The notes under the pieces: generated by a model
Database searches by the model: none
What the model was told of the DNA's origin: nothing
Seen by the model: the letters and a program-made list of their open reading frames with translations, nothing else
Shown: positions 14,572 through 31,074 of the stretch, in pieces
Layout of the letters: each line of letters opens with the position of its first letter
Position numbering within the stretch: position 1 is the first letter of the stretch
DNA from: Melioribacteraceae bacterium
GTDB taxonomy: Bacteria > Bacteroidota > Ignavibacteria > Ignavibacteriales > Melioribacteraceae
Direction: 5' to 3'
Assembly: GCA_026983955.1 (NCBI GenBank)
Contig: JALSTB010000163.1
Coordinates: 1 to 33,010, forward strand
Length of the DNA stretch: 33,010 nt
Translations under genes and position numbers: made by a program

Positions 14572-15522
14572 ATGAAGAAAAATATACTTTCAATATTTTT
14601 AATTCTACTTATTTCAACATTAACTTTGCTTGCACAAGAAGATGTGGCAAACAAAGTGGATTATACATTCACTCTAAATTCCGATTGCCTTGACGAGCCC
14701 GTTGTTATTGCTTCCGGGTCAGTTATGGAAGGTGAAACATTTACTTTGCCTTCTTTCGGATTTCCCGAATACATTCCGAACTGGCAACAATTATACGATG
14801 CTTTGGTCGGAACGACATTCGAACTTGAGTCTGGTGCGATAAACGAGAATGTTCATCTGGATATCCAACTCCAGCAACTGGATTGCGATGGAGCGGGATT
14901 TGTAGATCCTACGGGAGAAGGTAATCCGTTTTTTATATTCCTTGGTATAAAAGTAACCGGTGAGCAGAGCGGTGAGACGGCTTTGGAAGATTTTTATTAT
15001 TTCAACGAAGGAAAACATGCTACAATCTGTTTCCCGATGACGGAAGAATTTCTGGCTTTTCTCGCATCCGTGGGAATTGACCCTAACGATATCAGTTTTG
15101 CTTATTTCCTCGGCGGTGAATATTTAACCGAGGGAATGACTTGGGAGGTTGTGGAAGGAAATCCCGGTAAATTGTGCTTGTATTTAAGCCACTTTTCGCA
15201 AATTGCCGGAGGCAGTGGTAAACTCGTCGGTTTAACCAACGGCGATGCATCTGTTCCGGAACATTATTTCTTGCAACAAAACTATCCCAATCCTTTCAAT
15301 CCTTCTACCGTTATAAAATTCGGATTACCGGAAGCAGGAAATGTTAAATTGGATATTTTCAATTTATTGGGCCAAAATGTTGCCGAGCTTGTAAACAGAA
15401 AACTGTCCGCCGGAATTCATGAAGTTACCTTCGATGCTTCGAATTTACCTTCCGGAATTTATTTGTATAAAATTACAACCGGCAAATTTTCAGAAACCAA
15501 GAAAATGATTTTAATGAAATAA
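14572..15522 (+). CDS. Secreted protein with type IX secretion C-terminal sorting domain
   Basis: A 316-residue exported protein of unknown function. Residues 1-22 are a signal peptide (hydrophobic core, cleavage after LLA before QED). The central part (about 25-225) is acidic and rich in aromatic residues, with several cysteines (CLDEPV, LDCDGAG, ATICF, KLCLY), and has no domain I recognise. The last 80-85 residues, beginning at YFLQQNYPNPFNPST and ending in a lysine-rich KKMILMK, are a type A T9SS sorting domain. The product is therefore predicted to cross the outer membrane by the Por system and be anchored or released. AAAGGAG precedes the ATG, and a strong terminator follows 25 bases after the stop, so it is a single-gene unit. 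Confidence 0.87.
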   Translation: MKKNILSIFLILLISTLTLLAQEDVANKVDYTFTLNSDCLDEPVVIASGSVMEGETFTLPSFGFPEYIPNWQQLYDALVGTTFELESGAINENVHLDIQLQQLDCDGAGFVDPTGEGNPFFIFLGIKVTGEQSGETALEDFYYFNEGKHATICFPMTEEFLAFLASVGIDPNDISFAYFLGGEYLTEGMTWEVVEGNPGKLCLYLSHFSQIAGGSGKLVGLTNGDASVPEHYFLQQNYPNPFNPSTVIKFGLPEAGNVKLDIFNLLGQNVAELVNRKLSAGIHEVTFDASNLPSGIYLYKITTGKFSETKKMILMK

Positions 15523-17268: not shown

Positions 17269-17313
17269 AATCCGTTGCTCAGGTTGTCAAATACTTTAGT
17301 AAGGTTGGAGCTT

Positions 17314-17862
17314 ATGCCGGAAGAAAAAGACGAAATTTTGGTTAAAAGGTTTTTAGAGGGTGATGAACGTGCGTACAATGAAATTGTTATCCGTTACAGA
17401 AAAAAGATTTACTGGCATGCAAGAAGAATGCTGGGTAATCATCTTGATGCCGACGATGTAACACAAGAAGTGTTAATCCAAATATATAAAAAGTTAAAAA
17501 CATTTAAGTTTAACTCATCTTTGTATACTTGGATTTTTAAAATTACATCGAGTAAAAGTTTGAATAAAATAAAAAGAAACAACATCAAAAAATTTTTATC
17601 ATTGGATAACGGACATACACAATTTTTACGGACAAATGTGGACATTGTAAAAACTTTTGAAGATAAAGAAAAATTAAACAGATTAAATGAAATATTGAAG
17701 GATATTTCCGCTAGACAGAAAGAAGTTTTTTTGCTTAAGCAATTTGAAGGACTGAGTTATAAAGAAATTTCAGAAATAACCGGGAAAAGCATCGGAACAT
17801 TAAAAGCCAATTATCATTTTGCTTTGCAAAAAATATTAGAGAAGATGAAAAATGAAGAATAA
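17314..17862 (+). CDS. ECF-type RNA polymerase sigma factor
   Basis: A 182-residue extracytoplasmic-function sigma factor. Region 2 covers about residues 10-80, with EILVKRFLEGDERAYNEIV, the polymerase-binding LDADDVTQEVLIQIYKKL and YTWIFKITSSKSLNKI. Region 4 covers about 120-175, with ISARQKEVFLLKQFEGLSYKEISEITGKSIGTLKANYHFALQK split here only by function, forming the -35-binding helix-turn-helix. The ATG at 17314 has GGAG just upstream and is preferred over an in-frame TTG at 17275. It overlaps the following anti-sigma gene by 11 bases, the usual arrangement. Its regulon probably includes the Spy-like genes on both sides, which is inference from position. Confidence 0.92.
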   Translation: MPEEKDEILVKRFLEGDERAYNEIVIRYRKKIYWHARRMLGNHLDADDVTQEVLIQIYKKLKTFKFNSSLYTWIFKITSSKSLNKIKRNNIKKFLSLDNGHTQFLRTNVDIVKTFEDKEKLNRLNEILKDISARQKEVFLLKQFEGLSYKEISEITGKSIGTLKANYHFALQKILEKMKNEE

Positions 17863-18424
17863 AGAAAAAATATTAAAATACCTTGCAGGTCAAATGAGCA
17901 AAGCGGAAAAAGATCAGTTCGAAAATGAGATATCCCGCGATGCCGCACTGGAAAAGGAATTAAATTCAGCAAACGGACTGTTGGAACAAATTAATAAATT
18001 TTCGGATGTTGAAACGGATGAGGCATATTTTTCTTCGTTAATTCCGGAAATCAGACGACGACTGGAAAAAGATAAAAAGCGGAGAAAAGTTTACCGGTTC
18101 TCCGTTGCCTTCACGTCAATTATAATTTTGATACTTGCCTTTGTATACTTTTCCGGTAACCAAAAACATGAAGTGCTGTTGAGCGATTCGGAAATGGAAA
18201 AAATAATTGATGAGATTCCGCAAAACTTGGTTTCAACGGTATTATCCGGTACAGTTGATTTAAGGGGAGCGGAAATTCAAATTGATGAATTCGATTTAAC
18301 CGGAGAATATTTATCGGAATTTTCCGAGAGTGATTTTATTTATCTTTTAAATTCGTTTTCAAATGAAGAATTGAATGAACTTTCCGAATATTTAACGGAA
18401 ACTAAAACACAGGTGGAAAAATGA
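17852..18424 (+). CDS. Membrane-bound anti-sigma factor
   Basis: A 190-residue single-pass inner-membrane protein, predicted to hold the ECF sigma factor inactive. The cytoplasmic N-terminus (about 1-78) opens with KILKYLAGQMSKAEKDQFENEIS, typical of anti-sigma domains, but no zinc-binding HxxxCxxC motif is present. One membrane helix spans about residues 81-101. The periplasmic part (about 102-190) is acidic, with a leucine/serine-rich C-terminus. It overlaps the sigma gene by 11 bases and the next Spy-like gene by four (ATGA), so all three are translationally coupled. The signal it senses is unknown; coupling to a Spy-like protein suggests misfolded protein or metal stress. Confidence 0.85.
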   Translation: MKNKEKILKYLAGQMSKAEKDQFENEISRDAALEKELNSANGLLEQINKFSDVETDEAYFSSLIPEIRRRLEKDKKRRKVYRFSVAFTSIIILILAFVYFSGNQKHEVLLSDSEMEKIIDEIPQNLVSTVLSGTVDLRGAEIQIDEFDLTGEYLSEFSESDFIYLLNSFSNEELNELSEYLTETKTQVEK

Positions 18425-18903
18425 AAAAAAATATGTTAATGATTTGTCTTTTGTTAATCGTTCCGGTATTGAATTACGGACAAATAAGGCACAAGCCGCC
18501 TCATCGTTTGTGGAAGGGCTGGGCAAAAGTAGAACAGTTGGAAAAACTGAAATTGCTCGAAATTTTGGATTTGGACGAAGAAACTTCAATCCGCTTTTTC
18601 GCCCGGAAAAACAAACATCACAAGCAACAAAAAAGATTCATTGAACAAAAGGACAGTTTGATAAACGTGTTAAACGAAATTGTGGAAACCGGAAAAGGCG
18701 AAAACAAAAACCGGATTTTGCAAGTGGTTAATGAAATTAACAATATTGATATTAAACTGGCAGAAAATAAAAAGAAATTTATTAATTCATTGACCGGTTT
18801 ATTAAGTGCGGAACAAATAGCCAAACTGGTTATATTCGATTCGAAATTCAGGCGTGAAATAGCCGATTTTATAATCAAAAAGAGACGCAGAAAACCAGAT
18901 TAA
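18421..18903 (+). CDS. Second Spy/CpxP-like periplasmic protein
   Basis: A 160-residue exported protein with a signal peptide ending NYGQ. The mature part is mostly helical and very basic, with a proximal LLEILDLDEETSIRFF segment and a distal LLSAEQIAKLVIF segment in the positions of the two LTxxQ motifs of the Spy/CpxP family. The histidines in the HKPPHR and NKHHKQQ stretches could bind metal. It overlaps the anti-sigma gene by ATGA. In CnrYXH-type systems a periplasmic CnrX of this family controls a membrane anti-sigma factor, and this gene may play that role. The family call is by motif and context, not by strong identity. Confidence 0.65.
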   Translation: MKKNMLMICLLLIVPVLNYGQIRHKPPHRLWKGWAKVEQLEKLKLLEILDLDEETSIRFFARKNKHHKQQKRFIEQKDSLINVLNEIVETGKGENKNRILQVVNEINNIDIKLAENKKKFINSLTGLLSAEQIAKLVIFDSKFRREIADFIIKKRRRKPD

Positions 18904-18963
18904 AAAGTTTTGAATTGTTTTATGGCATAAAGTAATTAATATCCAACCAAAATTAATTTAACT

Positions 18964-19007
18964 AATCATTGGAACATCTGGGGAAATTCCCTGTTTAAGA
19001 AATGATT
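18964..19007. repeat. Nested imperfect palindrome upstream of tRNA-Leu
   Basis: AATCATT (18964-18970) pairs with AATGATT (19001-19007). Inside it AACA (18973-18976) pairs with TGTT (18992-18995), and the centre is GGGAAATTCCC (18981-18991), itself a palindrome around one A. There is no T-run after it, so it is not a standard terminator. Confidence 0.4.
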
Positions 19008-19041
19008 GAGGCACTAAACTATCAAGTGGCGAAATAAGGTA

Positions 19042-19072
19042 TTGATTTTTTTATCTTGATGAATTATCTTTC
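19042..19072 (+). promoter_or_regulatory. Bacteroidota-type promoter of tRNA-Leu
   Basis: TTG at 19042-19044 is followed after exactly 20 bases by TATCTTTC (19065-19072), which fits TAnnTTTG except for the last base. Transcription would start a few bases before the tRNA at 19085. The spacing is identical to the nth promoter in this window. Confidence 0.6.
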
Positions 19073-19084
19073 TGGTTCGATTAT

Positions 19085-19168
19085 GCGGAAGTGGTGAAAT
19101 TGGTATACACGCTACTTTGAGGGGGTAGTGCCCGCAAGGGCGTACGGGTTCAAGTCCCGTCTTCCGCA
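19085..19168 (+). tRNA. tRNA-Leu (anticodon GAG)
   Basis: The acceptor stem GCGGAAG/CTTCCGC is perfect. The anticodon stem is CTACT/GGTAG with loop TTGAGGG, placing anticodon GAG at 19119-19121, which reads CUC and CUU leucine codons. The long variable arm (GCCC-GCAA-GGGC) is typical of class II leucine tRNAs, and the T arm is ACGGG-TTCAAGT-CCCGT. The discriminator base is A at 19168; CCA is not encoded. The TPR gene begins 33 bases downstream with no terminator between. Confidence 0.95.
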
Positions 19169-19200
19169 CTAGTCATAAATCATTAAACAAAGGGGAAAGT

Positions 19201-19974
19201 ATGAAGAAAGTTGTTTTTCTAATCTTGAGTTTCGTTTTGTTATCGGTAAGTTTTGTTTATGCGCAAAAGACCGAAATGGATCCGGAAGCTGCAAAATTAT
19301 ATAATTCCGGAAACAAAATGTTAAAATCCGGTAACTACGAAGGTGCAATTGAAGATTACAGCAAAGCACTTGAAATTTCCAAAGATTACAGAATTTTTTA
19401 CCAGCAGGGAATTGCATATAAAAAACTACGTAAATTCGACAAGGCTCTCGAATCTTTCCATGCCTGCCTCGAAGCTAATCCGGATTTCCATATTGTTTAC
19501 AACAGTTTGGGAACAACTTATTATGCACAAGGCGATTATTTAAAAGCCATTGAATACTTCAAAAAATTTGAAGAATCGGTTAAAAAGAAAAAACTTAAAA
19601 ACCGCGCGCGAAAATATATCAGTCTGGCATACACCAAGTTGGGTGATAAGGAATTAAAAAATAAAAATTATAAAAAAGGTATTGAATATCTTACTGAAGC
19701 GGTAAAGTATTACAATTATGATGCAGCTTATCTCAAGTTGGCCGATGCTTATATTGAAATGGGAGAGTATCAAAAAGCATTGGAAGCTGCAGACAATGCT
19801 ATCAAATACAGAAGTAAAAAATCCAAAGTACCGAAAGGTGCACCTTATTTTTACAAAGGATTGGCTTACAAGGGTTTGAAAGATAAAGCCAATGCGAAAG
19901 AAAATTTTGTTATTGCTGCGAAAGATAAATTATACAGGGATAGAAGCAAACATGAACTTAAATACATGAACTGA
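19201..19974 (+). CDS. Secreted tetratricopeptide-repeat protein
   Basis: A 257-residue exported protein. The signal peptide ends FVYAQ. The mature part consists of about five to six TPR units starting near residue 25, for example LYNSGNKMLKSGNYEGAIEDY, and another motif YLKLADAYIEMGEYQKALEAAD near residue 178. TPR arrays mediate protein-protein contacts; the partner is unknown. AAAGGGGAAAG upstream supports the ATG. It is probably transcribed with the tRNA-Leu just upstream, since no terminator separates them, and ends at a strong terminator. It is a separate gene from the giant TPR protein at 21005. Confidence 0.85.
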   Translation: MKKVVFLILSFVLLSVSFVYAQKTEMDPEAAKLYNSGNKMLKSGNYEGAIEDYSKALEISKDYRIFYQQGIAYKKLRKFDKALESFHACLEANPDFHIVYNSLGTTYYAQGDYLKAIEYFKKFEESVKKKKLKNRARKYISLAYTKLGDKELKNKNYKKGIEYLTEAVKYYNYDAAYLKLADAYIEMGEYQKALEAADNAIKYRSKKSKVPKGAPYFYKGLAYKGLKDKANAKENFVIAAKDKLYRDRSKHELKYMN

Positions 19975-19999
19975 TTGCTTCATTAAAGTTTTTTAGCTG

Positions 20000-20029
20000 A
20001 ACCCTCGTGTTACGAGGGTTTTTTATTTT
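20000..20029 (+). terminator. Rho-independent terminator after the TPR gene
   Basis: AACCCTCG (20000-20007) and CGAGGGTT (20013-20020) form a perfect 8-bp stem around TGTTA, followed by TTTTATTTT. Confidence 0.93.
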
Positions 20030-20204: not shown

Positions 20205-21005
20205 ATGTTTTCCTTGTGGATAAAATTAATAATATCATTTTCATTAGCGTTCTTTGTTTCTTGGGTTGCATTTAAGAGGGAATTTCTCACAAAAAGCGGT
20301 GCCGTAGCCACATTTTTTCTCGCGGTGGTAATTTTTTATTACGGCGGAATAAAGTGGAGTATTCCGGTATTAATGTTTTTTCTTCCGTCAAGTTTTTTGA
20401 GCAAACTGAATAATTCGAAAAGAAGCGGTTTTCAAAACATATTTGAAAAAGCGGGCAGCAGGGATTTTTGGCAAGTATCGGCTAACGGTGGTGCCGGCGG
20501 AATTTTAGTACTGGTTAATCATTTTATCCCAAGTGAAACATGGTTTTATCTTTATGTTGCCTATTTGTCCATCATGTCGGCAGATACTTGGGCTACGGAA
20601 CTCGGAACACTTAAAAGCAGGAAAACGTATAACGTGTTAACATTCAGACCGGTTGAGCAAGGCATATCCGGTGGTGTTTCATTGTTTGGAATATTTGCTT
20701 CTCTCGCCGGTTCGTCGGTCGTTGTATTAAGCGCTTTGCCATGGTTAACGGGAAATCCCGGAATTATATTTTTATTAATTATTACCGGGTTGTTGGGAAG
20801 TTTGATTGACAGTGTTCTCGGCGCAACAGTACAAGTTCAATACAAATGTGGTAATTGTTTTGCGGTAACAGAAAGAAAGAAACATTGCAACATTGAAACA
20901 ACCAAAATAAAAGGAATAAGCTGGTTCAATAACGATTGGGTTAATTTTTCAGCGGGAATTACAGGAATTTTAATTTTTTATTTAATCGGAAAATTGTTTG
21001 CTTAG
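20205..21005 (+). CDS. DUF92-family integral membrane protein (VTE6-like)
   Basis: A 266-residue polytopic membrane protein with about six hydrophobic helices. It has the DUF92 (TIGR00297) signatures: FLTKSGAVATF near the N-terminus, the MSADTWATELG motif at about residues 124-134, LGSLIDSVLGATVQ and a C-terminal NDWVN. Plant and cyanobacterial relatives (VTE6) act as phytyl-phosphate kinases, using CTP; in non-photosynthetic bacteria the substrate, probably an isoprenoid alcohol phosphate, is unknown. A pair of cysteines (YKCGNCF) lies in a loop near residue 217. The stop codon overlaps the GTG start of the giant TPR gene by one base, so it heads a seven-gene operon. Confidence 0.87.
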   Translation: MFSLWIKLIISFSLAFFVSWVAFKREFLTKSGAVATFFLAVVIFYYGGIKWSIPVLMFFLPSSFLSKLNNSKRSGFQNIFEKAGSRDFWQVSANGGAGGILVLVNHFIPSETWFYLYVAYLSIMSADTWATELGTLKSRKTYNVLTFRPVEQGISGGVSLFGIFASLAGSSVVVLSALPWLTGNPGIIFLLIITGLLGSLIDSVLGATVQVQYKCGNCFAVTERKKHCNIETTKIKGISWFNNDWVNFSAGITGILIFYLIGKLFA

Positions 21006-23980
21006 TGAATAAAAATATTTTTCATACCGGATTGATTTTTTTCATTTCCTTCACTTTACTGCGGGGACAATCCACCGTTGATATTTACAATTCGGCGCTG
21101 ACCGCTTTCCGGAAAAATGATTACGCCAAAGCCTATGAATTGTTTACTGCTTTCCTTAACAACAATGATGTGGATAAAGATTTGTTCGCATCGGCAAAAT
21201 ATTATACGGCGGAAAGTTTAATTGCCCTGAATGAATATGAAGGTGCTATTCAAGAACTCAATTCTTTGGTTCTCGATCATAATTTTGTCGTAATCCGGCC
21301 CAAAGCATTATACCGGTTGGGAAAATTGTTTTTCGATTTGGGGGAATATGAAAATGCCAGAAAAAAATTGGAACAATATCTTTACGAATATCCTTACGGT
21401 TCGTTTACCGGTTCGGTTTATTATTTGATTGGTGAAAGTTATGTTAAAGAAAACCGGTACGGTGAAGCAATCGATTTTCTGAAAAATGCGATTGAAATTA
21501 AGCGCAAAAATGAATTTGTAGATCATACGATTTTTTCCTTGGCAAATATTTACGAGAAAAAAGGTGAATATGAAAAAGCAGTTGAATATTACGATAAGCT
21601 CTTGGCTTTTTACCGGAAAAGCAAGCTGAGACCTTACGCACAATTGAGAATAGGAATATGTTACTACAAACTGGGAGAATACGAAAGCGCAATTTTGGAA
21701 TTATCCGATCCCTTAATTGACCGTTTGCCGCAAAATTTTAAGAATGAAGCTTTCTTTATGTTGGGACAAACTTACTTTGCGCAAAACGAATTTGAAAAAG
21801 CTTCTAAAATTTTTTCCGGTTTACTTGATGGCAATACCGGCAAAAAATTTAAAAACAAAATTGTTTACAGTCTGGCATGGGTTCATTTCAAAAACAATCA
21901 ATATGATAAAGCATATAAATTATTTGAGAATATTGCCAAACTTAAGAGCGACACACTTGCAGCCAATGCTTTGTTCTGGAGTGCCGAATGTAAAAGACTG
22001 AACGGTGATAAACAAGAGGCGGTGGAAATTTATAACCGGTTTCTTGAAAAATATCCGCAACACCGGTTGGCTCCGAAAGCAAAACTTAATTTGGGTTTGG
22101 CTAAATTGGACAAAACCGATTTTTCACAATCCGAAAGGGATTTAATTTCCGCGCTCGGATCGTCTGATATTCAAACCAAAGCAAAAGCAAATATTTTATT
22201 GGGGAATATCAGTCTGAGAAAAAAAGATTACAATGCCGCGGCAAAATATTTTGGCGATTGTGTTTTCTTAAATCCTCCGGTAAAATTAAAAGACAAAGCA
22301 TTGCTCGGTTGGGGAACGGCTTTGTACTATTTAAACAAACCGTCCCGGGCAATTCAGGAATTGAAAAAAATTACAATTGGACTAACTTCGGATGAGGAAC
22401 AAACCAAAAATTTTTACTTGGCCGAATCATATTTCGCATTGGGAAAATATAAAAAGGCAATTGTCTATTACAACAAAATTAAATCCACCAATAAAAAATT
22501 GGATGGAGAAACACTTTACGGAAAAGCCTATGCTTATTTCAATGCCAAAGATTACGCCAACGCTGCATATTTGTTCCGTAAATTCTTAAACCGGTTTCCC
22601 GGTGATAAAAGAGAGCTCGATGCAAAAACAAGATTGGCGGAAAGTTATTTCGGGGTAAAAGATTTTGACAAAGCTGCACGTTTGTACAAAGAATTAATTT
22701 ATAAACATAAAAGATTAGCTAACTCCGGTGAATCTTATTACAGATACGGACAGTCGCTGTTTCAAGCCGGTAAATCAAATGAAGCGATTAAGGTTTTTCA
22801 AGAACTGCAAAAAAAATTTCCAAACTCGGAATATGGAGACGAAGCACAATACTTAATCGGTTGGGTTCACTTCCAAACTGGAAATTTTCACGAAGCAATA
22901 CGGTACTACGAGGATTTGCAAACGAAATATCCAAGGTCGAAAATAATACCAGTCGCAATTTATTCGATTGGCGATGCTTATTTTAATTTGGGCGAATACG
23001 AAAGGGCAATCAGAAAATATATGGAATTGATTAAGCGTTACCCGGATACAAAATATGTTTTCGATGCAATTAACGGGATAATTTATTGTTATGAAGTAAC
23101 GGACAGAACTACCGATGCAATTAATTTTATCGATAAAATAATTCAAACCAATTCCCAGCCGCAATTCAACGATAAAATCTTTTTTAAGAAAGGGGAAATT
23201 TATTACAGTATTGCGAATTACAAATCGGCAATTGAAAGTTATAATGAATTTATCGCAAAATATCCGCAAAGTAAACTTGTACCAAATGCATATTATTGGA
23301 TTGGGAAAAGCGCGGCAAACTTAGGCAACTATGATGAAGCACTGATCAACTATCACAAAATCATCAATAACTACATCAATTCCGATATTGCGGTGCAGGC
23401 GGTAATTGAAGCGGGAACAATCTATCACAAACGGGAAAATTACGATGGTGAAATTGAATTGTATGAAGCGACATTCGATAAATTGAAAGATAAAGAAGGT
23501 GCCGCCGAAATAGCATTTAAGAAAGCGGAAGCATTTATTCAAAAAAACGATATTCCGGCAGCGTATAAATCTTTGTTGGCTGTCATTGAAATTTATCCCG
23601 GTACGGTATTTTCCGACGAAGCTAAAATTGAATTGGGAATTATTGAATTGGCACGGAAAGATTATAGTAAAGCGGAAGATTTGTTCAGGGAAGTTGCCGG
23701 TTCACGAAAAGACGACATCGGAGCGAAGGCACAATTCTATTACGGCGAAGCTTTATTCCTTCAAAATAAAATTGAAGATGCAGTTGCGGCATTTGTGCGG
23801 GTGCGTTCCATCTTTCCGGCTTACGATGAATGGTATTCGCGCTCGTTGTTAAGGTTGGGCGATTGTTATGTAAAATTAAACGATACTAAAAATGCAAAAG
23901 AAATGTATTCGGCGGTATTGAAAAAACACCGTTCGGATAAATTGGGCGCAGAGGCAAAATCAAAGTTGAAAAAGTTATGA
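21005..23980 (+). CDS. Giant tetratricopeptide-repeat protein, CpoB/YbgF-like
   Basis: A 991-residue exported protein made almost wholly of TPRs, some 25 units. The signal peptide ends LLRGQ. Many repeats follow a pattern such as AIYSIGDAYFNLGEYERAIRKY or AEAFY-QKND types, ending in a KYP turn, as in BamD and CpoB/YbgF. A role as a periplasmic scaffold is likely. The start is a GTG at 21005 overlapping the DUF92 stop (TAGTG), with no other start better placed. It ends with ATGA shared with the outer-membrane barrel gene. In Tol-Pal systems CpoB, a TPR protein, links TolA to cell-wall synthesis; sitting here with ExbB/ExbD/TonB genes it may act likewise. Confidence 0.88.
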   Translation: MNKNIFHTGLIFFISFTLLRGQSTVDIYNSALTAFRKNDYAKAYELFTAFLNNNDVDKDLFASAKYYTAESLIALNEYEGAIQELNSLVLDHNFVVIRPKALYRLGKLFFDLGEYENARKKLEQYLYEYPYGSFTGSVYYLIGESYVKENRYGEAIDFLKNAIEIKRKNEFVDHTIFSLANIYEKKGEYEKAVEYYDKLLAFYRKSKLRPYAQLRIGICYYKLGEYESAILELSDPLIDRLPQNFKNEAFFMLGQTYFAQNEFEKASKIFSGLLDGNTGKKFKNKIVYSLAWVHFKNNQYDKAYKLFENIAKLKSDTLAANALFWSAECKRLNGDKQEAVEIYNRFLEKYPQHRLAPKAKLNLGLAKLDKTDFSQSERDLISALGSSDIQTKAKANILLGNISLRKKDYNAAAKYFGDCVFLNPPVKLKDKALLGWGTALYYLNKPSRAIQELKKITIGLTSDEEQTKNFYLAESYFALGKYKKAIVYYNKIKSTNKKLDGETLYGKAYAYFNAKDYANAAYLFRKFLNRFPGDKRELDAKTRLAESYFGVKDFDKAARLYKELIYKHKRLANSGESYYRYGQSLFQAGKSNEAIKVFQELQKKFPNSEYGDEAQYLIGWVHFQTGNFHEAIRYYEDLQTKYPRSKIIPVAIYSIGDAYFNLGEYERAIRKYMELIKRYPDTKYVFDAINGIIYCYEVTDRTTDAINFIDKIIQTNSQPQFNDKIFFKKGEIYYSIANYKSAIESYNEFIAKYPQSKLVPNAYYWIGKSAANLGNYDEALINYHKIINNYINSDIAVQAVIEAGTIYHKRENYDGEIELYEATFDKLKDKEGAAEIAFKKAEAFIQKNDIPAAYKSLLAVIEIYPGTVFSDEAKIELGIIELARKDYSKAEDLFREVAGSRKDDIGAKAQFYYGEALFLQNKIEDAVAAFVRVRSIFPAYDEWYSRSLLRLGDCYVKLNDTKNAKEMYSAVLKKHRSDKLGAEAKSKLKKL

Positions 23981-25563
23981 AAAAGTTAATTCAAATATTT
24001 ATAATTTTAAGTATTGCGGGAGTTAGCCGTGCCCAGCAATCAGGAGAATCACAAAGTGTGGAATTGCCCGAATTTGTAATTACCGGCGTAAGAAAAATTT
24101 CGTTGCCCCCGGCGAGGAAAGCCAAACCCGATCTCGTTTTCTCAAATTTGGAAAATTATTCCGCCGGTGTTGAATATGATGAGAATTTGTTTGACCCGGG
24201 AATAACGGTCCCCCGGTTTCTTAATTTAACGGAACACAAACAATCTTCGTCCAACGGATTATTAAAAGGATCGGTAGGAAGCGTAACATTCCCTTCGGGT
24301 GAGTTTTTCTACAATAACAATTACGGCGGTGTTTTTGTAGATGCAAATATTTGGGGCAAAAGCGAGAGGGAATTTGTAAAAGATGCCGGTTATAATTCTG
24401 CCGGTGCTTCCCTCGGTTTGAATTATTTTATCGATCATAATACGGAAAACTTCGGTGGTTTGGCAATATCCTTTTCAACAAAATATTCAACCGATTCCTA
24501 CAATCTTTACGGTTCGGCTACAAATTTAACGCGGAAAACCAAAAACGGTTATTTCAATGTTGGTTTATCAAATAACTATTCGCCTGTAAGATACGGATTT
24601 TCATTTGCCGGCAAATATTTGGAATTTAACGAAAATAAATTATCCCAAACGATGACGTTAATCGGATCGTACATAAAATTTCCAGCCGGTAAATTAAACT
24701 TCTCAGTAAGCGGAAACGTGAAAATCCAAAAACTTGTTAATAATTTAAGCTCAAAGGATACATACAGTTATATTACTTTTGAGCCGGAAGTTAATTATAG
24801 AATTTCGCGCAATGCCGAAATTATAGGCGGAATATTTTTCTCACGGGATGATATCAATACTTTCTTTTCACCCAAAGTGCGGCTTAGAACCAAAATCTCC
24901 GGTAAACTTTCCGCTTTTGCCGAGTTTTCACCCGGAACGGAATTTTTGACCATATCCGATTTTATAAATATGAACAGGTACTACAGTCTGTCACAGACCG
25001 AAAATATTTTTCTTAAACGGAACAACAGCTTGAAATTTTCTCTCGAGTACGGATTTTTACAATATTTTGAAATTGACGGAACTTTTGAATACAACAGATT
25101 CGATAACCTGCCTTATTTCCAGAGAGATGTTAATCCGGGCAATTTTAATATTTATAATTTAAATGGAGTTGATGATTTTTCCGTCGCGGTAAATTCCTAT
25201 TTCGATTTTTTGGATTACGGCAAATTAACATTAAACTTAAAATATCAAATAATTGAAAAGAATGGAGCGCAAATTCCCTACTACCCGTTATTTAAAAGTA
25301 CGGCGGTCTATTGGTACGGTTTCGAAAACGGGATTGATGTAACGGCAAGAATGAATTATTCTTCAAAAATTTATGCTGATGTTGGAAATACTGTAACTGT
25401 CCCGGATTATTTGACAATCGGATTTTCACTCGGTTATGAATTGTTCGACAGCTTCAAATTAACTTTGGATGCCGATAATTTACTCAACAGAAAAAATTAT
25501 TTGTTTGAAAATTACCGCGCAAAAACTTTGGATATTGCTGCGGGTTTTGAATATAGATGGTAA
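23977..25563 (+). CDS. Outer-membrane beta-barrel protein, TonB-receptor-like without a plug
   Basis: A 528-residue predicted outer-membrane protein. The signal peptide ends SRAQ. A short segment (VELPEFVITGVRKI, about residues 27-40) resembles the start of a TonB-dependent receptor, but only about 50 residues separate it from the barrel, so the roughly 120-residue plug domain is missing. The rest is alternating polar/aromatic strands, with many segments ending in aromatic residues, and the C-terminus is FEYRW, typical of barrels. The DADNLLNRKNYLFE segment near the C-terminus also occurs in TonB receptors. It overlaps the giant TPR gene (ATGA) and precedes the HU-SPOR gene by 36 bases. Its cargo is unknown; linkage to ExbB/ExbD/TonB suggests energised function. 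Confidence 0.8.
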   Translation: MKKLIQIFIILSIAGVSRAQQSGESQSVELPEFVITGVRKISLPPARKAKPDLVFSNLENYSAGVEYDENLFDPGITVPRFLNLTEHKQSSSNGLLKGSVGSVTFPSGEFFYNNNYGGVFVDANIWGKSEREFVKDAGYNSAGASLGLNYFIDHNTENFGGLAISFSTKYSTDSYNLYGSATNLTRKTKNGYFNVGLSNNYSPVRYGFSFAGKYLEFNENKLSQTMTLIGSYIKFPAGKLNFSVSGNVKIQKLVNNLSSKDTYSYITFEPEVNYRISRNAEIIGGIFFSRDDINTFFSPKVRLRTKISGKLSAFAEFSPGTEFLTISDFINMNRYYSLSQTENIFLKRNNSLKFSLEYGFLQYFEIDGTFEYNRFDNLPYFQRDVNPGNFNIYNLNGVDDFSVAVNSYFDFLDYGKLTLNLKYQIIEKNGAQIPYYPLFKSTAVYWYGFENGIDVTARMNYSSKIYADVGNTVTVPDYLTIGFSLGYELFDSFKLTLDADNLLNRKNYLFENYRAKTLDIAAGFEYRW

Positions 25564-25587
25564 AGTTTTAATTTGGTTCATAATTTC

Positions 25588-25593
25588 AGAGGA
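25588..25593 (+). promoter_or_regulatory. Shine-Dalgarno sequence deciding the HU-SPOR start
   Basis: AGAGGA lies six bases before the ATG at 25600, which places the start there rather than at the in-frame TTG at 25573. Confidence 0.6.
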
Positions 25594-25599
25594 CTAAAA

Positions 25600-27195
25600 A
25601 TGAACAAACAAAATCTAATCCTGAAAATGGCTGAAAACCTTGGTGTTTCCCGTACACAAAAAGATTTGGCTTTTAAGATTTTTATCGACAAAGTTACAAG
25701 TTTGCTAAATTACGGTGAAGCAATCAAGATTCCCGAAATAGGTGTTTTTCAATTGAAAAAAGAACCTGCGGTTGCAGGTAAATCCGGCCAAGGTGCAAGC
25801 AGCAGAATAATTTTCTCACCAACTTACTCCGCATCCACGGATGAGAAATTATCACTGTTTTTAACTATAGACGTTGAAGAACACAGCCGCGTTAGCCGGG
25901 AATACACCGATAAAATTTTCAGTCTGGGCATCGGCAAACCTTTAATTCCCGTTAGCAATACTTCAAAAGGGAATGTGGCAACCGATGAACTTTACATCCA
26001 GAGATCGATTCAAGAAAGAATAAACGACTTGCTCGCCCGTTCGGAAAAGCTTGAAAGTTTCGATTTGTGGGATGATTATTTGAGTGAAAAAACCGTGAAA
26101 AACGCTCCCACATTTGAGCCGAATTTAAGTGATAAAATTACAGCCGGCTTACCGGATGAAGTTGAAAATTTTATTCAAAAAAAAAACTTTGAACCTGAAC
26201 AAAACGGGCAAGTAACCGGCGAAAACGAACAAGCGGAACCTGTAGTAGAAAGGGAAGAAGACGATATTATATTCGAGCCGGAAAATTTATCCACGGAAAC
26301 CGGAACGGACAATTCTGGCAAATTGGAAAATCCGGTTGAAAAATTGATTGATGATGAACCGGAAAATACAAACAATGAAATTGATGAACCAAATGAAGAA
26401 ACATCTTCCGGTGATATAAAATCGGAAGAAGAAAATTTACAAACGGATTCCGGTACCGGAGAAGCTACCGATGAAGATAATTCCAAGACAAATAACGATG
26501 CGGAGAAATTAAATGATGAAGAAACGGTTCAGCCGATATTTGATCCAACGGTACGTTGGACGCATGAACAAAAGCGCGACAACTCATTCTGGTATATTCT
26601 TGGTGTTTTCATTTTAGTTACGTTAGCCGGAATCTACTATTTCATTCTTGAACCTTCCGGAAGCACAAACGTATCAATTCCGGGTGATATTTCCGGTAAT
26701 GGAGAAAGACAATCGCCCGTAATATCACAAGAAGAAAAGAATACAGCAGAGCATTCAACAGCCAATATTCCGGAGCAGGCTAACACTCAAAAGGTAACAA
26801 AGGAATCCGTTACCGGTGAATCACCCCAAGGAGCGGAAACAAATCCGCAAAAGAATGAAGCCGGTAATGTTAATAAAAAACCGGTTGCAAATCAGTTATC
26901 AGTAGCAACCGGACAAAAAAATCTTGCAGGAAACGGGAACAATTCCGCTTTTGGCAAGGAAAAAGAGGTAGAAGATTTAATTTTTTACAACGGTAAATTT
27001 TATTCCGTACAAATTTCCTCTTGGAAAAACAAAAGCTCTGCATTGAAAGCAGCGGAAAAAATCAAAAGAAGAGGTTACCAAACGGAAGTTGTATCAGCAG
27101 ATTTGGGTTCAAGGGGAACGTGGCACAGGGTAAGAATTGCAAAAGTCAAAAACATTAAAGAAGCAAGAAGAATTAAAAATTTATTCGTAAGATAG
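25600..27195 (+). CDS. Inner-membrane protein with cytoplasmic HU domain and periplasmic SPOR domain
   Basis: A 531-residue single-pass protein. Residues 1-90 form an HU/IHF-type fold, with LILKMAENLGVSRTQKDLAF and AIKIPEIGVFQLKK corresponding to the HU beta-arm start. Residues about 160-320 are a low-complexity acidic linker rich in E, D, N and T. One membrane helix lies at about 330-350 (SFWYILGVFILVTLAGIYYF). A second linker leads to a SPOR domain in the last 75 residues (FYSVQISSWKNKSSALKAAEKI and WHRVRIAKVKN), which binds denuded septal peptidoglycan. HU is expected in the cytoplasm and SPOR in the periplasm, so it could tie DNA to the division site. Such HU-SPOR fusions are known in Bacteroidota; their function is not established. 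Confidence 0.87.
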   Translation: MNKQNLILKMAENLGVSRTQKDLAFKIFIDKVTSLLNYGEAIKIPEIGVFQLKKEPAVAGKSGQGASSRIIFSPTYSASTDEKLSLFLTIDVEEHSRVSREYTDKIFSLGIGKPLIPVSNTSKGNVATDELYIQRSIQERINDLLARSEKLESFDLWDDYLSEKTVKNAPTFEPNLSDKITAGLPDEVENFIQKKNFEPEQNGQVTGENEQAEPVVEREEDDIIFEPENLSTETGTDNSGKLENPVEKLIDDEPENTNNEIDEPNEETSSGDIKSEEENLQTDSGTGEATDEDNSKTNNDAEKLNDEETVQPIFDPTVRWTHEQKRDNSFWYILGVFILVTLAGIYYFILEPSGSTNVSIPGDISGNGERQSPVISQEEKNTAEHSTANIPEQANTQKVTKESVTGESPQGAETNPQKNEAGNVNKKPVANQLSVATGQKNLAGNGNNSAFGKEKEVEDLIFYNGKFYSVQISSWKNKSSALKAAEKIKRRGYQTEVVSADLGSRGTWHRVRIAKVKNIKEARRIKNLFVR

Positions 27196-27211
27196 CAAAG
27201 GAAGGTAATTT

Positions 27212-27871
27212 ATGAGCATACTGGAAATTTTCATGAAAGGCGGCTGGATAATGCTGCTTATTCTTATCGCTTCGATTATTGCCGTGGCAATAATTATAGA
27301 CAGATACAGGGTAATCAGAAAATCGAAAATGAACGTACCGGCATTCCTTGTAAAAATCAGAGGAATGGTAAAGCGGAAAGACATTTCGGGTGCAATCAGT
27401 TATTGTATTGAAGAAAATTCCGCTGCGGCAAACATTGTTAAACAAGGATTAAAGAAATATCATCTCGGAAGGGAAAGAGTTAAAGAAGCAATTGAAAATG
27501 CAGGCAAACAGGAAATAAGCAAGTTGGAGAAAGGGCTTTCCGTTTTGGCTACAATTTCCGGGGTTGCGCCGTTACTCGGTTTTCTCGGTACGGTAACGGG
27601 AATGATTGCAGCATTTATGAAAATAGAAGATTTGCAAGGAGCCGCAAATCCGAATGACTTGGCCGGTGGAATTTGGGAAGCGTTGCTCACAACTGCTTTC
27701 GGACTTGCAGTGGGAATTTTGGCATATACTTTCTACAACTTTTTGGTTTCATCAATTAAAAAATTGGTATTGCAAATGGAAGTGGTGTCAAACGATGTGG
27801 TGGATATTTTGGACGAAGTTACTTCGGGGCACGAACGCACCGAAGAAGATGATATCGAAATAGAATTATAG
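27212..27871 (+). CDS. exbB: ExbB/TolQ/MotA-family proton-channel subunit
   Basis: A 219-residue inner-membrane protein with three helices. The first covers about residues 10-31; the others (VLATISGVAPLLGFLGTVTGM about 110-131, and a helix near 155-180 beginning LLTTAFGLAVGIL) carry the family's conserved GLLGTV/GIAEAL-type motifs. It forms the proton channel that drives TonB or TolA with ExbD/TolR. GGAAGG precedes the ATG. The gap to ExbD is eight bases. ExbB and TolQ cannot be separated with certainty; the TonB gene downstream favours ExbB. Confidence 0.92.
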   Translation: MSILEIFMKGGWIMLLILIASIIAVAIIIDRYRVIRKSKMNVPAFLVKIRGMVKRKDISGAISYCIEENSAAANIVKQGLKKYHLGRERVKEAIENAGKQEISKLEKGLSVLATISGVAPLLGFLGTVTGMIAAFMKIEDLQGAANPNDLAGGIWEALLTTAFGLAVGILAYTFYNFLVSSIKKLVLQMEVVSNDVVDILDEVTSGHERTEEDDIEIEL

Positions 27872-27879
27872 GTGGAAAT

Positions 27880-28284
27880 ATGAAATTTGAAATGTCTCAA
27901 AAACCCCTTACTATTTTCAGTTTTTCTTCGTTAACGGATATTGTTTTGCTGTTGCTTATCTTTTTCCTGCTCACTTCGCAATTTGTGGTTCAAACGGGAG
28001 TTAAAGTGAAACTACCTGCGGCAAAAAACATGGAACAATCGGTTCCTACAAAGTTGGTTGTTTCGATTACGGAAGAGGGAAAGGTTTTTCTCGGTTCGAA
28101 AGCGGTTGATGTGGCTGCACTTCCGGCAGAACTCGATGGTTTAAAACAACAAAACGATGAAAACAATTTAATTATCAGAGCCGATAAATCCGTGCAAATT
28201 GATTTGGTAATTAAAGTAATTGATGCTGCACGGAGTGTTGGAATAGATAAATTTACAATTGAAACGGAAAAAGAAACTTTTTAA
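27880..28284 (+). CDS. exbD: ExbD/TolR-family protein
   Basis: A 134-residue inner-membrane protein with a short cytoplasmic N-terminus, one helix (about 19-38, TDIVLLLLIFFLLTSQFVV) and a periplasmic domain. The conserved proton-carrying aspartate is D20 at the start of the helix. The periplasmic part has the typical LIIRADKSVQIDLVIKVID strand-helix. GGTGG lies before the ATG, and an in-frame ATG at 27892 is an alternative start. It partners with the upstream ExbB-like channel. Confidence 0.92.
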   Translation: MKFEMSQKPLTIFSFSSLTDIVLLLLIFFLLTSQFVVQTGVKVKLPAAKNMEQSVPTKLVVSITEEGKVFLGSKAVDVAALPAELDGLKQQNDENNLIIRADKSVQIDLVIKVIDAARSVGIDKFTIETEKETF

Positions 28285-28286
28285 TC

Positions 28287-28979
28287 ATGGATAGAAAAGA
28301 TTCAATAAAATCTTATCTGTATTCAATCGGATTGCATTTGCTGTTGGCGTTTGTGTTTTTGTTTTTAAGTTTTACACCCGATGTGAAAGAGGATGAATAC
28401 GTTACAATCGGTTTCGGAACAATAGGCAAACTAAGTTCGCCGGGACCTTTGGGAAGTGCGAAGAAAAGTGAGACCAAAATTACGAAACCGGAAAAACAAA
28501 AAAAGAAAAAGAAAACCGAAATCAAAAAAGTTAATGTTCCTAAAACAAAAAACACCGATGTAAAAAACAAAGTTGTTGTTGCCGCAAAAGAGAAAAAGAA
28601 AACGGAAAACGAATCGAAGAAAAACAATTCTTTGGTTAAAGACGAAACCAAAAAAGCCAAAGGGAAAGAGATAAGCGGCGAAGGTGAAGGCAACTTCGGA
28701 TTCGAAATCGATTTTGGTGGAAAAGGGAAACGGAAAATTTACAGCTATAAACTTCCCGAATATCCGCCGGGTGTTTCGAAGGAGATTGATGTTAAATTGA
28801 AATTCAGTATTTTACCGGACGGAACCGTGGGACGAATTATTCCGCTTATTAAAGCCGATACCCGTTTGGAGATGGCGGCTATTAATTCTTTACGAAAATG
28901 GAGGTTCGAACCCCTTCCCGAAAATCAAAATCAAGCCGTTCAAACCGCCGTTATTGTGTTTCCTTTCCGCTTGAGGTGA
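28287..28979 (+). CDS. tonB: TonB energy-transducer protein
   Basis: A 230-residue periplasm-spanning protein. The N-terminal anchor (about 9-30) includes S13 and H17, matching the SHLS-type motif through which TonB and TolA contact ExbB. A long lysine/glutamate-rich linker (about 60-135) replaces the usual proline-rich one. The C-terminal domain (about 150-230) has the TonB signature: LPEYPPGVSKEIDVKLKFSI, GTVGRIIPL and AAINSLRKWRFEPL. It lies two bases after ExbD and is the last gene of the operon. Its 3' end overlaps a convergent gene by 29 bases. A TolA-like role is possible. Confidence 0.88.
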   Translation: MDRKDSIKSYLYSIGLHLLLAFVFLFLSFTPDVKEDEYVTIGFGTIGKLSSPGPLGSAKKSETKITKPEKQKKKKKTEIKKVNVPKTKNTDVKNKVVVAAKEKKKTENESKKNNSLVKDETKKAKGKEISGEGEGNFGFEIDFGGKGKRKIYSYKLPEYPPGVSKEIDVKLKFSILPDGTVGRIIPLIKADTRLEMAAINSLRKWRFEPLPENQNQAVQTAVIVFPFRLR

Positions 28980-29250
28980 AAATATCGGAATAATAAAATT
29001 TATAGAAAAAGAATTCACCCGCAGTTAAAAGCATTAATGAAAGCGTATCCAAATTCAATTCTTTGCCGAACCCTTCCGGCGGGAAAACCGCTTTGCTGAT
29101 CATTGTTGAAATTGACCAACCGACGGCGAACAAAATTATAATTAGAATTGCATTCGATAACGCCGAGGTAGGAGATTCCGTTTTCCATTTTTTATATACG
29201 ATAAAAAACAGAAAAATAAAGTGAATTAGAAAAATAAAAGCAGCGAGCAT
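28951..29250 (-). CDS. Small membrane protein of unknown function
   Basis: A 99-residue protein with about three hydrophobic helices (LAAFIFLIHFIFLFFIVY, AILIIILFAVGWSISTMIS and LSLMLLTAGEFFFYKFYY). No family is recognised. Its ATG overlaps the stop of the upstream gene (TAATG), which supports a real, translationally coupled last member of a four-gene operon. Its 3' end overlaps the tonB gene by 29 bases on the opposite strand. Confidence 0.65.
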   Translation of the reverse strand: MLAAFIFLIHFIFLFFIVYKKWKTESPTSALSNAILIIILFAVGWSISTMISKAVFPPEGFGKELNLDTLSLMLLTAGEFFFYKFYYSDIFTSSGKETQ

Positions 29251-29756
29251 TACGAATTTTGTTGAATCTTTGAATTTATAAATTTTAAGCCTATTAATGC
29301 ACCAATCGTTCCGAAAATAGGATTTATTATCAAATTGTTTACCACAACGGAGAAGGAGTATAACAGCGAAAATCCGGTTGTTTTAATTGAATTGACAACG
29401 TTTTCGGTTAATTGTATTACCTGTGTTTTCACCGTTTCTTCCACGGGAAATTTATCGATGAATTCATATAAATCGTTTACAACATACACAAGGTCATTCG
29501 ATTTTGTGATGAACGTGATTAAAATCTCGAAAAAACTTCCGAACAGTGCGGCAAACACGCCGGTCATTAATCCGGTTACAACAGCTTTTTGTGTGCTGAT
29601 TGGTGAAATGATTTTGTTCGATTTTTGATATAGTACTAATGCAAAAATTCCGGCCAACGGCATTATAATCAAACAAGAAAAACTTTTAACCACGGGTACA
29701 ACTTGCAACACACCGGCACCGAAACCGGCAACAAGAGCGGGAAGATGTTTTTTCAA
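29250..29756 (-). CDS. Integral membrane protein of unknown function
   Basis: A 168-residue protein with about four helices: an N-terminal pair (LPALVAGFGAGVLQVVPVV and LIIMPLAGIFALVLY), a middle helix (VVTGLMTGVFAALFGSFFEILI) and a C-terminal region (NLIINPIFGTIGALIGLKF). A polar, partly amphipathic stretch lies between the last two. No domain is recognised with confidence. It overlaps the DUF2085 gene by four bases and the next small membrane gene by one (TAATG). Confidence 0.7.
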   Translation of the reverse strand: MKKHLPALVAGFGAGVLQVVPVVKSFSCLIIMPLAGIFALVLYQKSNKIISPISTQKAVVTGLMTGVFAALFGSFFEILITFITKSNDLVYVVNDLYEFIDKFPVEETVKTQVIQLTENVVNSIKTTGFSLLYSFSVVVNNLIINPIFGTIGALIGLKFINSKIQQNS

Positions 29757-30211
29757 TTTTTATCCTTTTTGTTTTTTTCTTCCAATAAATCCATAATTCC
29801 TTCGTGAATATATAAAAATCCGGCTGAACCTAAAAGTAAGCCTGTTACTAGTGCAACGGTTTTGGAGTAAGAGTAAATTCCCAAAGAATATAAAAGCACA
29901 TCACCGGCAAGCGGTACTGATGCAAAAATTAATAGTTTAATATTTAATTTATTCTGCAATTTCAAAAATAGCAATCCGGCAGATGACAACAATGCGCCCA
30001 AATAAATTCCCGTGCACCTTGCGCATACCAAAGTTTTATGTCCGTTTATCGAAATTAGTTTAGCGGGTTGTTGGTGGCAAACGGTTGAATACGTCTTTTC
30101 CAAAAACGGAAGCAAGTAAAACAAACCGTTGATTTCCGGAATAAAAAAACGGATAAAGATTCCGCCGACCCACAAAAGAACCAAAAAGAATAGTACAAGT
30201 TTTATTTTCAT
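29753..30211 (-). CDS. DUF2085-family membrane protein
   Basis: A 152-residue membrane protein with about four helices. It has the DUF2085 signatures: VCHQQP (C45, H46) and, after a short loop, CARCTGIYLG (C63, C66), which together look like a metal-binding or redox-active site at the membrane surface. The function of this family is unknown. It shares four bases with both neighbours (NHL gene upstream, unknown membrane gene downstream), so all are probably co-translated. Confidence 0.85.
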   Translation of the reverse strand: MKIKLVLFFLVLLWVGGIFIRFFIPEINGLFYLLPFLEKTYSTVCHQQPAKLISINGHKTLVCARCTGIYLGALLSSAGLLFLKLQNKLNIKLLIFASVPLAGDVLLYSLGIYSYSKTVALVTGLLLGSAGFLYIHEGIMDLLEEKNKKDKN

Positions 30212-31074
30212 TTCCCGGCTTGATTTTCGTACGATGTGTAAACGATAATTTCCGTTTCCGTGAGAACATAAATTTTATTGTTCCGTGGTACAGCCTCAAC
30301 AATGTTAGCATTATCGGATAAACCTAATTGTTCCTTCGAAATATGCAAGGAACTATTTTCGCGCAAATTGAAAACCGTAATTTGCGATTCGTTATTAACG
30401 GAGAGAGAATTGCCGGACATGCCGATGTTTGTTGCATTAAAGCCGATTTTAATTTTAAACAAACCGTTTCCGTAATAATCGTAAACCAAAATTAAGCCGT
30501 CGTCCAATACATAAATTTTGCCGTCTGCCGAAATTGCCAATTTTTCCGGTTGGGTTACTGAAAAATCTCCGGCATCTATTCCTCCTATTTCCTGAAGAAA
30601 ATTTCCGTTCAAATCGTACTTCAATATTCTGGCGTTATCCGAATCCAAAATGAAAAGATCACCTTGGCCGGAAACCACACAACTTACAGGGTAAGCAAAA
30701 CCCAAATCACTTTCTTCGTTCGGTTGATTTTTGAACCCGGACAGAAAATTCAAATCTTTATCGAAAATTTGGATACGGTTATTGTTTTTGTCGGCTACGT
30801 AAACGTTGAGGGTGTTTGCATAGATGTCGGCCGGTTCGTCGAACTGGGCATCTTCCCAGCCGTATCCACCGATGAATTTAAACAGAGTTCCGAGAGTATC
30901 GAATTTGAAAATTTCATTCGAATATGAATCCGCCACGTAAACGTAACCGTTATCGGTAATCGAAAATGCCGATGCATTTTCAAACTTGCCAAAACTGACT
31001 GTTTTTGTAAACGGAAATTGAGCGTTTAACCGTAAACCGGAAAGCATAACTAAAATAATTAACAGATTCTTCAT
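30208..31074 (-). CDS. Secreted NHL-repeat beta-propeller protein
   Basis: A 288-residue exported protein, with a signal peptide ending RLNAQ. The mature part shows several NHL-type blades: GYVYVADSYSNEIFKFD, NVYVADKNNNRIQIFDK and DLFILDSDNARILKYDLNG, followed by two to three more diverged ones (GKIYVLDDGLILVYD), consistent with a six-bladed propeller. NHL propellers bind proteins, sugars or RNA; the ligand is unknown. It is the first gene of the minus-strand operon and is divergent from nth with about 115 bases between start codons. There is no T9SS sorting domain, so it probably remains periplasmic. Confidence 0.83.
   Translation of the reverse strand: MKNLLIILVMLSGLRLNAQFPFTKTVSFGKFENASAFSITDNGYVYVADSYSNEIFKFDTLGTLFKFIGGYGWEDAQFDEPADIYANTLNVYVADKNNNRIQIFDKDLNFLSGFKNQPNEESDLGFAYPVSCVVSGQGDLFILDSDNARILKYDLNGNFLQEIGGIDAGDFSVTQPEKLAISADGKIYVLDDGLILVYDYYGNGLFKIKIGFNATNIGMSGNSLSVNNESQITVFNLRENSSLHISKEQLGLSDNANIVEAVPRNNKIYVLTETEIIVYTSYENQAGK

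Follow-up and report, generated by a model that had tools for sequence, protein, structure and literature searches.

A conserved Ton-type gene module with a plug-less outer-membrane barrel, a giant tetratricopeptide repeat protein and a SPOR protein in Melioribacteraceae and related bacteria

We analysed a 33,010-base stretch of DNA (hereafter the window) that makes up an entire contig of the genome of a Melioribacteraceae bacterium (3.1 Mb, 190 contigs). At coordinates 20205-28979 it carries seven open reading frames (ORFs), all on the plus strand, which encode in gene order a DUF92 membrane protein, a giant tetratricopeptide repeat (TPR) protein, an outer-membrane barrel, a protein that joins an HU-like domain to a SPOR domain (HU-SPOR), and the ExbB, ExbD and TonB components of a Ton system (Table 1). 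The junctions between them measure -1, -4, +9, +16, +8 and +2 bases, and the barrel/HU-SPOR gap becomes +36 instead of +9 if HU-SPOR starts at the ATG at 25600. An earlier reading of this locus, made from the letters of the DNA (the sequence-only reading), had seen here a seven-gene operon for a dedicated, energised machine spanning the envelope. The tight packing it described, with overlaps or gaps of at most 36 bases, was confirmed by an ORF check, the range running from a 4-base overlap to a gap of at most 36 bases. Its gene names were also recovered by Pfam, which recognised DUF92, TPRs, SPOR together with Bac_DNA_binding, MotA_ExbB, ExbD and TonB_C; the exception was the barrel of the window, for which there was no Pfam match. 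A terminator-like hairpin sits between an upstream TPR gene of 257 amino acids (aa) and the DUF92 gene. This hairpin probably separates the upstream gene from the operon, and the transcription unit therefore plausibly begins at DUF92.

Table 1. Features of the Ton-type locus, in window coordinates.
Feature	Coordinates	Strand	Basis and remarks
Terminator-like hairpin	19999..20021	+	10 pairs then T-rich tail; consensus scan only
DUF92 integral membrane protein, 266 aa	20205..21005	+	Pfam PF01940, 201.5 bits, 2e-59; optional part
Giant TPR protein, 991 aa	21005..23980	+	Pfam TPRs; core part
Plug-less outer-membrane barrel of the TonB-dependent transporter type, 528 aa	23977..25563	+	AlphaFold2 model, Foldseek; core part
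TonB-box-like motif ELPEFVITG, barrel residues 29-37	24061..24087	+	Most conserved barrel stretch
HU-transmembrane-SPOR protein, 540 aa, likely start ATG 25600	25573..27195	+	Pfam SPOR 36.4 bits, Bac_DNA_binding 32.2 bits
ExbB/TolQ-type proton-channel subunit, 219 aa	27212..27871	+	Pfam MotA_ExbB 119.7 bits
ExbD/TolR-type subunit, 134 aa, membrane Asp motif SLTDI	27880..28284	+	Pfam ExbD 99.9 bits; alignment n = 11
TonB-type transducer, 230 aa	28287..28979	+	Pfam TonB_C 34.3 bits, cut-off 24.6

The Ton-type module is real and conserved. Across 58 related genomes, that of the window included, the barrel protein found matches in 56, and the window together with 39 of the 55 matching relatives formed a close set of 40 neighbourhoods. 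The genes for the TPR protein, the barrel, the SPOR protein and TonB follow one another in this order and on one strand in all 40, and ExbB and ExbD genes lie between the SPOR and TonB genes in 34. A strict distance test returned the full set in 32 of the 40 and the set without ExbB and ExbD in six (L049, L055, L056, L059, L069 and L072, where L numbers designate loci); L041 and L052, whose SPOR gene is split in the ORF calls, fail this test only and keep the order. The TonB gene remains in all six loci that have lost ExbB and ExbD, and their loss implies that a motor encoded at another locus can take over. The median spacing in the close set is -4 bases from TPR to barrel and -1 base from ExbD to TonB. 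Failure of the gene order in related genomes had been named in advance as an observation that could refute the sequence-only reading, and the order held throughout the close set. Adjacency within the bacterial order is by itself no proof, however, as a cluster of four minus-strand genes downstream is also kept in 33-37 of 39 close neighbourhoods.

More distant genomes were searched within the phylum, at an E-value of 0.001, with a profile built from the 40 close barrels. It matched 164 of 197 genomes of the class and 231 of 296 of the phylum, counts in which weak matches may include other barrels. From these we hand-picked 40 distant loci, taking 20 in families of the class other than that of the window and 20 elsewhere in the phylum; having been selected by the barrel profile, they make the barrel's own count there no evidence. 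Read from the neighbourhood listings, 35 of the 40 loci have a giant TPR gene on the upstream side of the barrel, cut by the contig end in L195 and separated from the barrel by one gene in L191, L199 and L200. None was seen there in L203, L205, L206 (which has only about 550 bases of contig on that side), L210 or L217, the last of which keeps the barrel alone. A SPOR gene lies downstream of the barrel in 31. ExbB was labelled in 18 of the distant loci and a downstream TonB in 24, while by eye a further TonB-like protein is present in L204 and L208, and in L197 TonB lies upstream instead. Genes that we take from their sequences to be folC-like follow directly after the TonB-like gene in L204, L208 and L209, two of which also carry a gene that is presumably of the tRNA-methyltransferase type.

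As a control, the window genes from 12 kb onwards each served as the query of a single-sequence search of the 40 distant neighbourhoods. Matches were obtained in 35 for the TPR protein, 18 for the barrel, 18 for ExbB, 17 for ExbD and 22 for TonB, and in just two for the HU-SPOR protein, the linker of which is poorly conserved. Genes outside the block matched in 0-5; higher counts came from a 99-aa gene (7/40) and from the 257-aa TPR gene (9/40), the latter probably through TPR cross-matches. With 17-35 matches for the other core genes and mostly 0-5 for the flanks, the clustering is not chance. The same comparison removed DUF92 from the set: its gene adjoins the TPR gene in 24 of 40 close neighbourhoods and finds a match in four of 40 distant ones, and it was rejected as a member. 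The core is thus six genes, encoding the giant TPR protein, the plug-less barrel, the transmembrane SPOR protein, ExbB, ExbD and TonB. Longer DUF92 ORFs, at about 470-530 aa close to double the size of that in the window, occur in L038, L040, L042, L048, L051, L054, L057, L064, L067, L068 and L070, which suggests a fusion with another domain.

Around the module, the upstream region 17275-19974 holds an ECF-type sigma factor gene, two small genes with no recognised function and the 257-aa TPR gene; relatives of these four are present in 26-31 of 39 close neighbourhoods and in only 0-9 of 40 distant ones. The four convergent genes of the downstream cluster (28951-31074, minus strand) encode the 99-aa protein, which is also without a recognised function, a DUF4199-like protein (below cut-off), a DUF2085 protein and a protein with NHL repeats, and the first of them overlaps the 3' end of the TonB gene. 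Further upstream, the gene at 14572-15522 encodes a protein that carries a C-terminal sorting domain of the type IX secretion kind (PF18962).

An AlphaFold2 model of the barrel, calculated with 40 sequences, had a mean predicted local distance difference test score (pLDDT) of 83. The strands run from residue 94 to residue 527, about 21-22 long ones being counted, and enclose an empty barrel with no plug; residues 17-46 and 51-90 have a pLDDT below 50 and no fold was modelled before residue 94. A Foldseek comparison with the PDB identified the fold class, as all 50 matches among those listed were TonB-dependent transporters (TBDTs), with query TM-scores of 0.51-0.64. In sequence searches of the PDB the barrel profile gave weak matches, mostly to the C-terminal parts of TBDTs (best 1.8e-7), and the Pfam model of the TBDT barrel matched just three of the 40 close barrels and seven of a second set of 41. 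The Plug domain was matched in none of the 80 different barrels of these two sets at an E-value of 0.01, the window barrel being in both. Since neither the model nor these searches contain a plug, we rejected an ordinary plugged receptor, and the plug-less barrel of the sequence-only reading stands.

The barrels of the close set are 18-59% identical to that of the window. Six of the 11 invariant columns fall within the nine residues ELPEFVITG (Fisher p = 1.3e-9), which lie a few residues past the likely signal peptide, and the pattern (E/Q)LPxFVIxG is present in all 40 close barrels. The motif resembles the consensus of the TonB box of ordinary receptors and is in line with the earlier claim of a TonB system. 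Of three receptors of the same genome that were read in frame (L224, L227 and L228), two carry by eye the strings EVVVTAG and EVVISG ahead of the plug, and some distant barrels likewise begin with TonB-box-like strings, for example ETVTVTK in L220. A scan for ELP[DE]FVIT gave 100 loci with a barrel relative, of which 80 were kept; by their labels they span Melioribacteraceae, Melioribacter, Ignavibacteriales and Ignavibacteria, some being given only as Bacteroidetes, Chlorobiota or bacterium, and they include the isolate Stygiobacter electus. The best match to the barrel of the window is L074 (59%). The Ton system is textbook import machinery, in which TonB unplugs the receptor. Where a barrel has retained a TonB-box-like motif and no plug is seen, TonB would have something else to pull on.

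The giant TPR protein was modelled as helix throughout, with 54 helices end to end and a mean pLDDT of 91; the predicted template modelling score of 0.49 leaves the overall curvature unsure. It begins with a signal-like segment and in the window shows no lipobox, a lipobox-like motif being present in four of 74 TPR proteins of at least 900 aa. TIGR02795, the YbgF/CpoB-type TPR model, scores 358 bits against a cut-off of 90.1 over 11 stretches, a sum that is inflated by the repeats; further TPR models, those of BamD and PorW/SprE among them, match as well. The protein is better conserved than the barrel, relatives being 31-76% identical to that of the window as against 18-59%. In a TPR superhelix eight repeats measure about 6 nm. 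We estimate from this that about 27 repeats could span some 20 nm, near the width of the periplasm.

The SPOR protein has an HU-like amino-terminus, an acidic linker, one transmembrane peak in the hydropathy plot at about residues 341-359 and a carboxy-terminal SPOR domain, an arrangement that would place its amino-terminus on the cytoplasmic side. The NCBIfam ftsN model gave 19.8 bits, far under its cut-off of 107.65. SPOR was found in all 38 proteins of the close set and in 30 of the 32 of a second set, which consists of the window protein, also in the close set, and 31 distant ones. The HU part is less constant. Bac_DNA_binding was matched in 30 of 38 close proteins and 12 of 32 in the second set, some members of which have HU-CCDC81 domains, and by eye 18 of the 31 distant proteins have no HU-like start. 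The motif NPxTG, which we take, in the form (R)NPxTG, to be that of the HU beta-arm, was absent from the first 110 residues of all 38 close and all 32 second-set SPOR proteins, with one near miss, VDPRTG in L200. A separate small HU-like gene does lie between the barrel and HU-SPOR genes in L181-L183, L194, L200, L203, L207 and L210, and by eye those of L181, L182, L183 and L200 carry the NPxTG arm. It is possible that this small protein is the dimer partner of the HU domain in HU-SPOR, perhaps giving a heterodimer. HU was rejected as a core feature on the basis of its absence from 18 of 31 distant proteins and the missing arm motif; as judged from these comparisons, the transmembrane SPOR protein belongs to the core and the HU domain is lineage-dependent.

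ExbB, ExbD and the C-terminal domain of TonB all pass their Pfam cut-offs. The TonB protein consists of a transmembrane segment with a Ser-x3-His motif, a basic linker and the TonB C-terminal domain. Ser-x3-His is present in all 40 operon TonBs, and 33 of the 34 ExbD proteins have the Asp motif; the functional meaning of the transducer His and the ExbD Asp is known from work in E. coli. Against the NCBIfam models the ExbB subunit scored 109.4 bits with tolQ and 70.9 with exbB, and the ExbD subunit 60.5 bits with tolR and 55.1 with ExbD_1, in each case under the cut-off.

No TolB was found by Pfam among the operon proteins of the window. Of the 58 related genomes, three had a TolB_N match at an E-value of 0.001 and one a match over the cut-off, the genome of the window having none, with positive controls in E. 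coli, Caulobacter and Bacteroides ihuae. Pal (TIGR02802) was over its cut-off in none of the 58, although the model is strict, as only two of four matching controls pass, and this negative is provisional. With TolB_N in one and Pal in none of the 58 genomes over the cut-offs, membership in a classical Tol-Pal system was rejected.

The module nevertheless shares with Tol-Pal a motor of the TolQ/ExbB and TolR/ExbD type, a membrane-anchored transducer, a TPR protein that may be of the YbgF/CpoB type and the arrangement in one operon, as well as work on the outer membrane at the septum, which is here only proposed. It differs in that TolB and Pal are absent from the locus and a TBDT-type barrel is the outer-membrane partner, the transducer is of the TonB type, the set includes a SPOR protein, and the TPR protein approaches four times the 263 positions of the CpoB model (PRK10803). 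With the Ton system of BtuB, Cir, FepA and other transporters it has in common ExbB, ExbD and TonB, and also a barrel of the TBDT type whose amino-terminus is TonB-box-like. Unlike that system it has no detectable plug, has giant TPR and SPOR partners, and in all 40 close neighbourhoods has a single barrel tied to the locus. In the Agl-Glt gliding machinery of Myxococcus xanthus, TPR proteins, outer-membrane barrels and parts resembling TonB accompany a TolQR-type motor; it is a different gene set in a different lineage, and we know of no SPOR gene or TonB-box barrel in it. The SPOR protein is bitopic like those of the FtsN/DamX type, and through the HU-CCDC81 domains of some second-set members it resembles CCDC81-type HU proteins, but unlike either it has a set place next to TonB and the barrel.

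Two arrangements treated in PMC12204202 come near to the module. PorE, a proposed Bacteroidetes fusion of CpoB, TolB and Pal, is likewise a proposed stand-in for Tol-Pal with a TPR part; as presented there it is a single lipoprotein with an OmpA-type wall-binding domain, whereas the present module lacks such a domain and has instead a motor, a TonB and a barrel. In the TPR-motor-vWA loci a TPR gene lies near a tolQ/tolR-like motor and a membrane-anchored transducer, which ends there in a vWA fold and here in TonB_C. Neither a barrel nor a SPOR gene is mentioned in the relevant section of PMC12204202, and the main text of that paper contains neither the word SPOR nor the word Ignavi. The sequence-only reading knew of no description of such a set, and our searches of the open-licence literature agree: among the matches listed, judged by titles and the starts of abstracts, none describes the six genes.

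We hypothesise that the module is a dedicated, proton-driven system that transmits force across the envelope, in which TonB pulls on the barrel, and with it the outer membrane, at septal wall marked by SPOR; we would put the probability of this reading at roughly 40%. ExbB and ExbD drive TonB, TonB pairs with TonB boxes, and SPOR domains bind the denuded glycan of the septum. In the proposed mechanism ExbB and ExbD would convert the proton gradient into motion of TonB, the C-terminal domain of which would grip the TonB-box-like peptide near the amino-terminus of the barrel. With no plug to pull, a flexible tether of about 55 residues would carry the tug on to the wall of the barrel and to the outer membrane itself. 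The transmembrane SPOR protein would gather the machine where peptidoglycan is stripped, that is, at the septum, and the long TPR rod may connect the barrel and the wall with the inner-membrane part, in a role not unlike that of CpoB in Tol. The outer membrane would thereby be drawn in or held to the wall in division, the work of Tol-Pal being done with Ton parts. The energised trans-envelope machine of the sequence-only reading survives in this form as the best reading, with six genes in place of seven and without its general link to the chromosome. A bolder version, quite possible though less likely than not, would make the module the Tol-Pal equivalent of Bacteroidota and Ignavibacteria, an ancestral Ton machine in which a transporter barrel that lost its plug became the outer-membrane handle and TonB came to pull the membrane rather than a plug, with SPOR for septal placement and a TPR rod of about the length of the periplasm as spacer.

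Several observations weigh against a force system at the septum. A large empty barrel should leak unless it is capped. Only the TPR-barrel pair is kept in the distant loci L211, L212, L215 and L218-L220, and no SPOR gene stands beside the barrel in L197 and L198, both of which are unexpected for a septal role unless the missing genes lie elsewhere. Matches to Pal below the cut-off occur in all 58 related genomes, and OmpA-type domains are plentiful, at nine places in the genome of the window, so that another tether may do the outer-membrane work. TolB_N passes its cut-off in the control Bacteroides ihuae, and TolB-Pal and CpoB-TolB-Pal (PorE) fusions are reported in Bacteroidetes in PMC12204202; the phylum is therefore not free of Tol-like parts.

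The most serious rival is a private TonB-driven transporter or exporter, which we consider quite possible without thinking it probable. Here the barrel would be a pore, the TPR protein would cap it on the periplasmic side in place of a plug or guide a polymer or protein through, TonB would open the gate and SPOR would only position the assembly. In the TPR-barrel exporters of exopolysaccharides the TPR part guides the polymer through. The TBDT fold and the TonB-box-like motif of the barrel suit this explanation, as does the persistence of the TPR-barrel pair, which at 35 of 40 distant loci is the most durable part of the module; a precedent for a TBDT needed in secretion is Oar with PopC in Myxococcus (PMC6434023). 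It accounts less well for the SPOR protein, whose gene accompanies the barrel at 31 of the 40 distant loci and which has no obvious use in transport, and for the finding that no recurring substrate, glycosyltransferase, lipoprotein-receptor or enzyme gene was seen inside the block in the window and the 40 close loci, the neighbours in the distant loci being mostly unannotated.

It is also conceivable, but improbable, that ExbB, ExbD and TonB form a general energiser for ordinary receptors and merely share an operon with unrelated envelope genes. The genome of the window has 24 Plug-bearing places and ExbD at two loci only, in the operon and as a pair on another contig; the folC- and tRNA-methyltransferase-like genes after TonB in some distant loci show that unrelated genes can ride along, and the minus-strand cluster is likewise kept in the order. 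The stability of the order in all 40 close neighbourhoods speaks against it, as does the TonB gene that stays with the barrel in the six without ExbB and ExbD. The second motor, ExbB-ExbD-ExbD, on the other contig has no TonB beside it, and TonB_C was matched at six further places in the genome, two of them within one ORF (L233/L234, G000:C120), which is 402 aa long. In a tree the 40 operon TonB C-termini part from three other TonBs of the genome on one branch (100/100); the tree was made without L230 and L231, and with its long branches and unsettled bootstrap it shows separation, not ancestry. The other TonBs, the second motor set and the 24 Plug places together make a private Ton set plausible, and the separate branch together with the retention of TonB where ExbB and ExbD are gone favours a TonB bound to the barrel, short of proof. 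The motor may be shared with other systems.

A link from chromosome to septum, in which HU would bind DNA and SPOR the septal wall while the motor parts aid final partition, is very improbable: it draws on the HU-SPOR fusions of the close set, the HU-CCDC81 members, the small HU-like genes of eight distant loci with the arm in four, and a chromosome-partition role reportedly predicted in 2017 for Bacteroidetes CCDC81-type HU proteins, but as a general feature it fell with the distant SPOR proteins that have no HU and with the arm motif found in none of the SPOR proteins scanned.

What the analysis adds is a TonB gene, usually with its motor, that is tied across a bacterial order, and partly beyond it, to a barrel with a TonB-box-like motif and no plug. 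If the module acts at the septum as proposed, it would help to explain how the outer membrane is constricted or held in bacteria that have no standard tol-pal locus, and it may point to an evolutionary route from nutrient uptake to force transmission.

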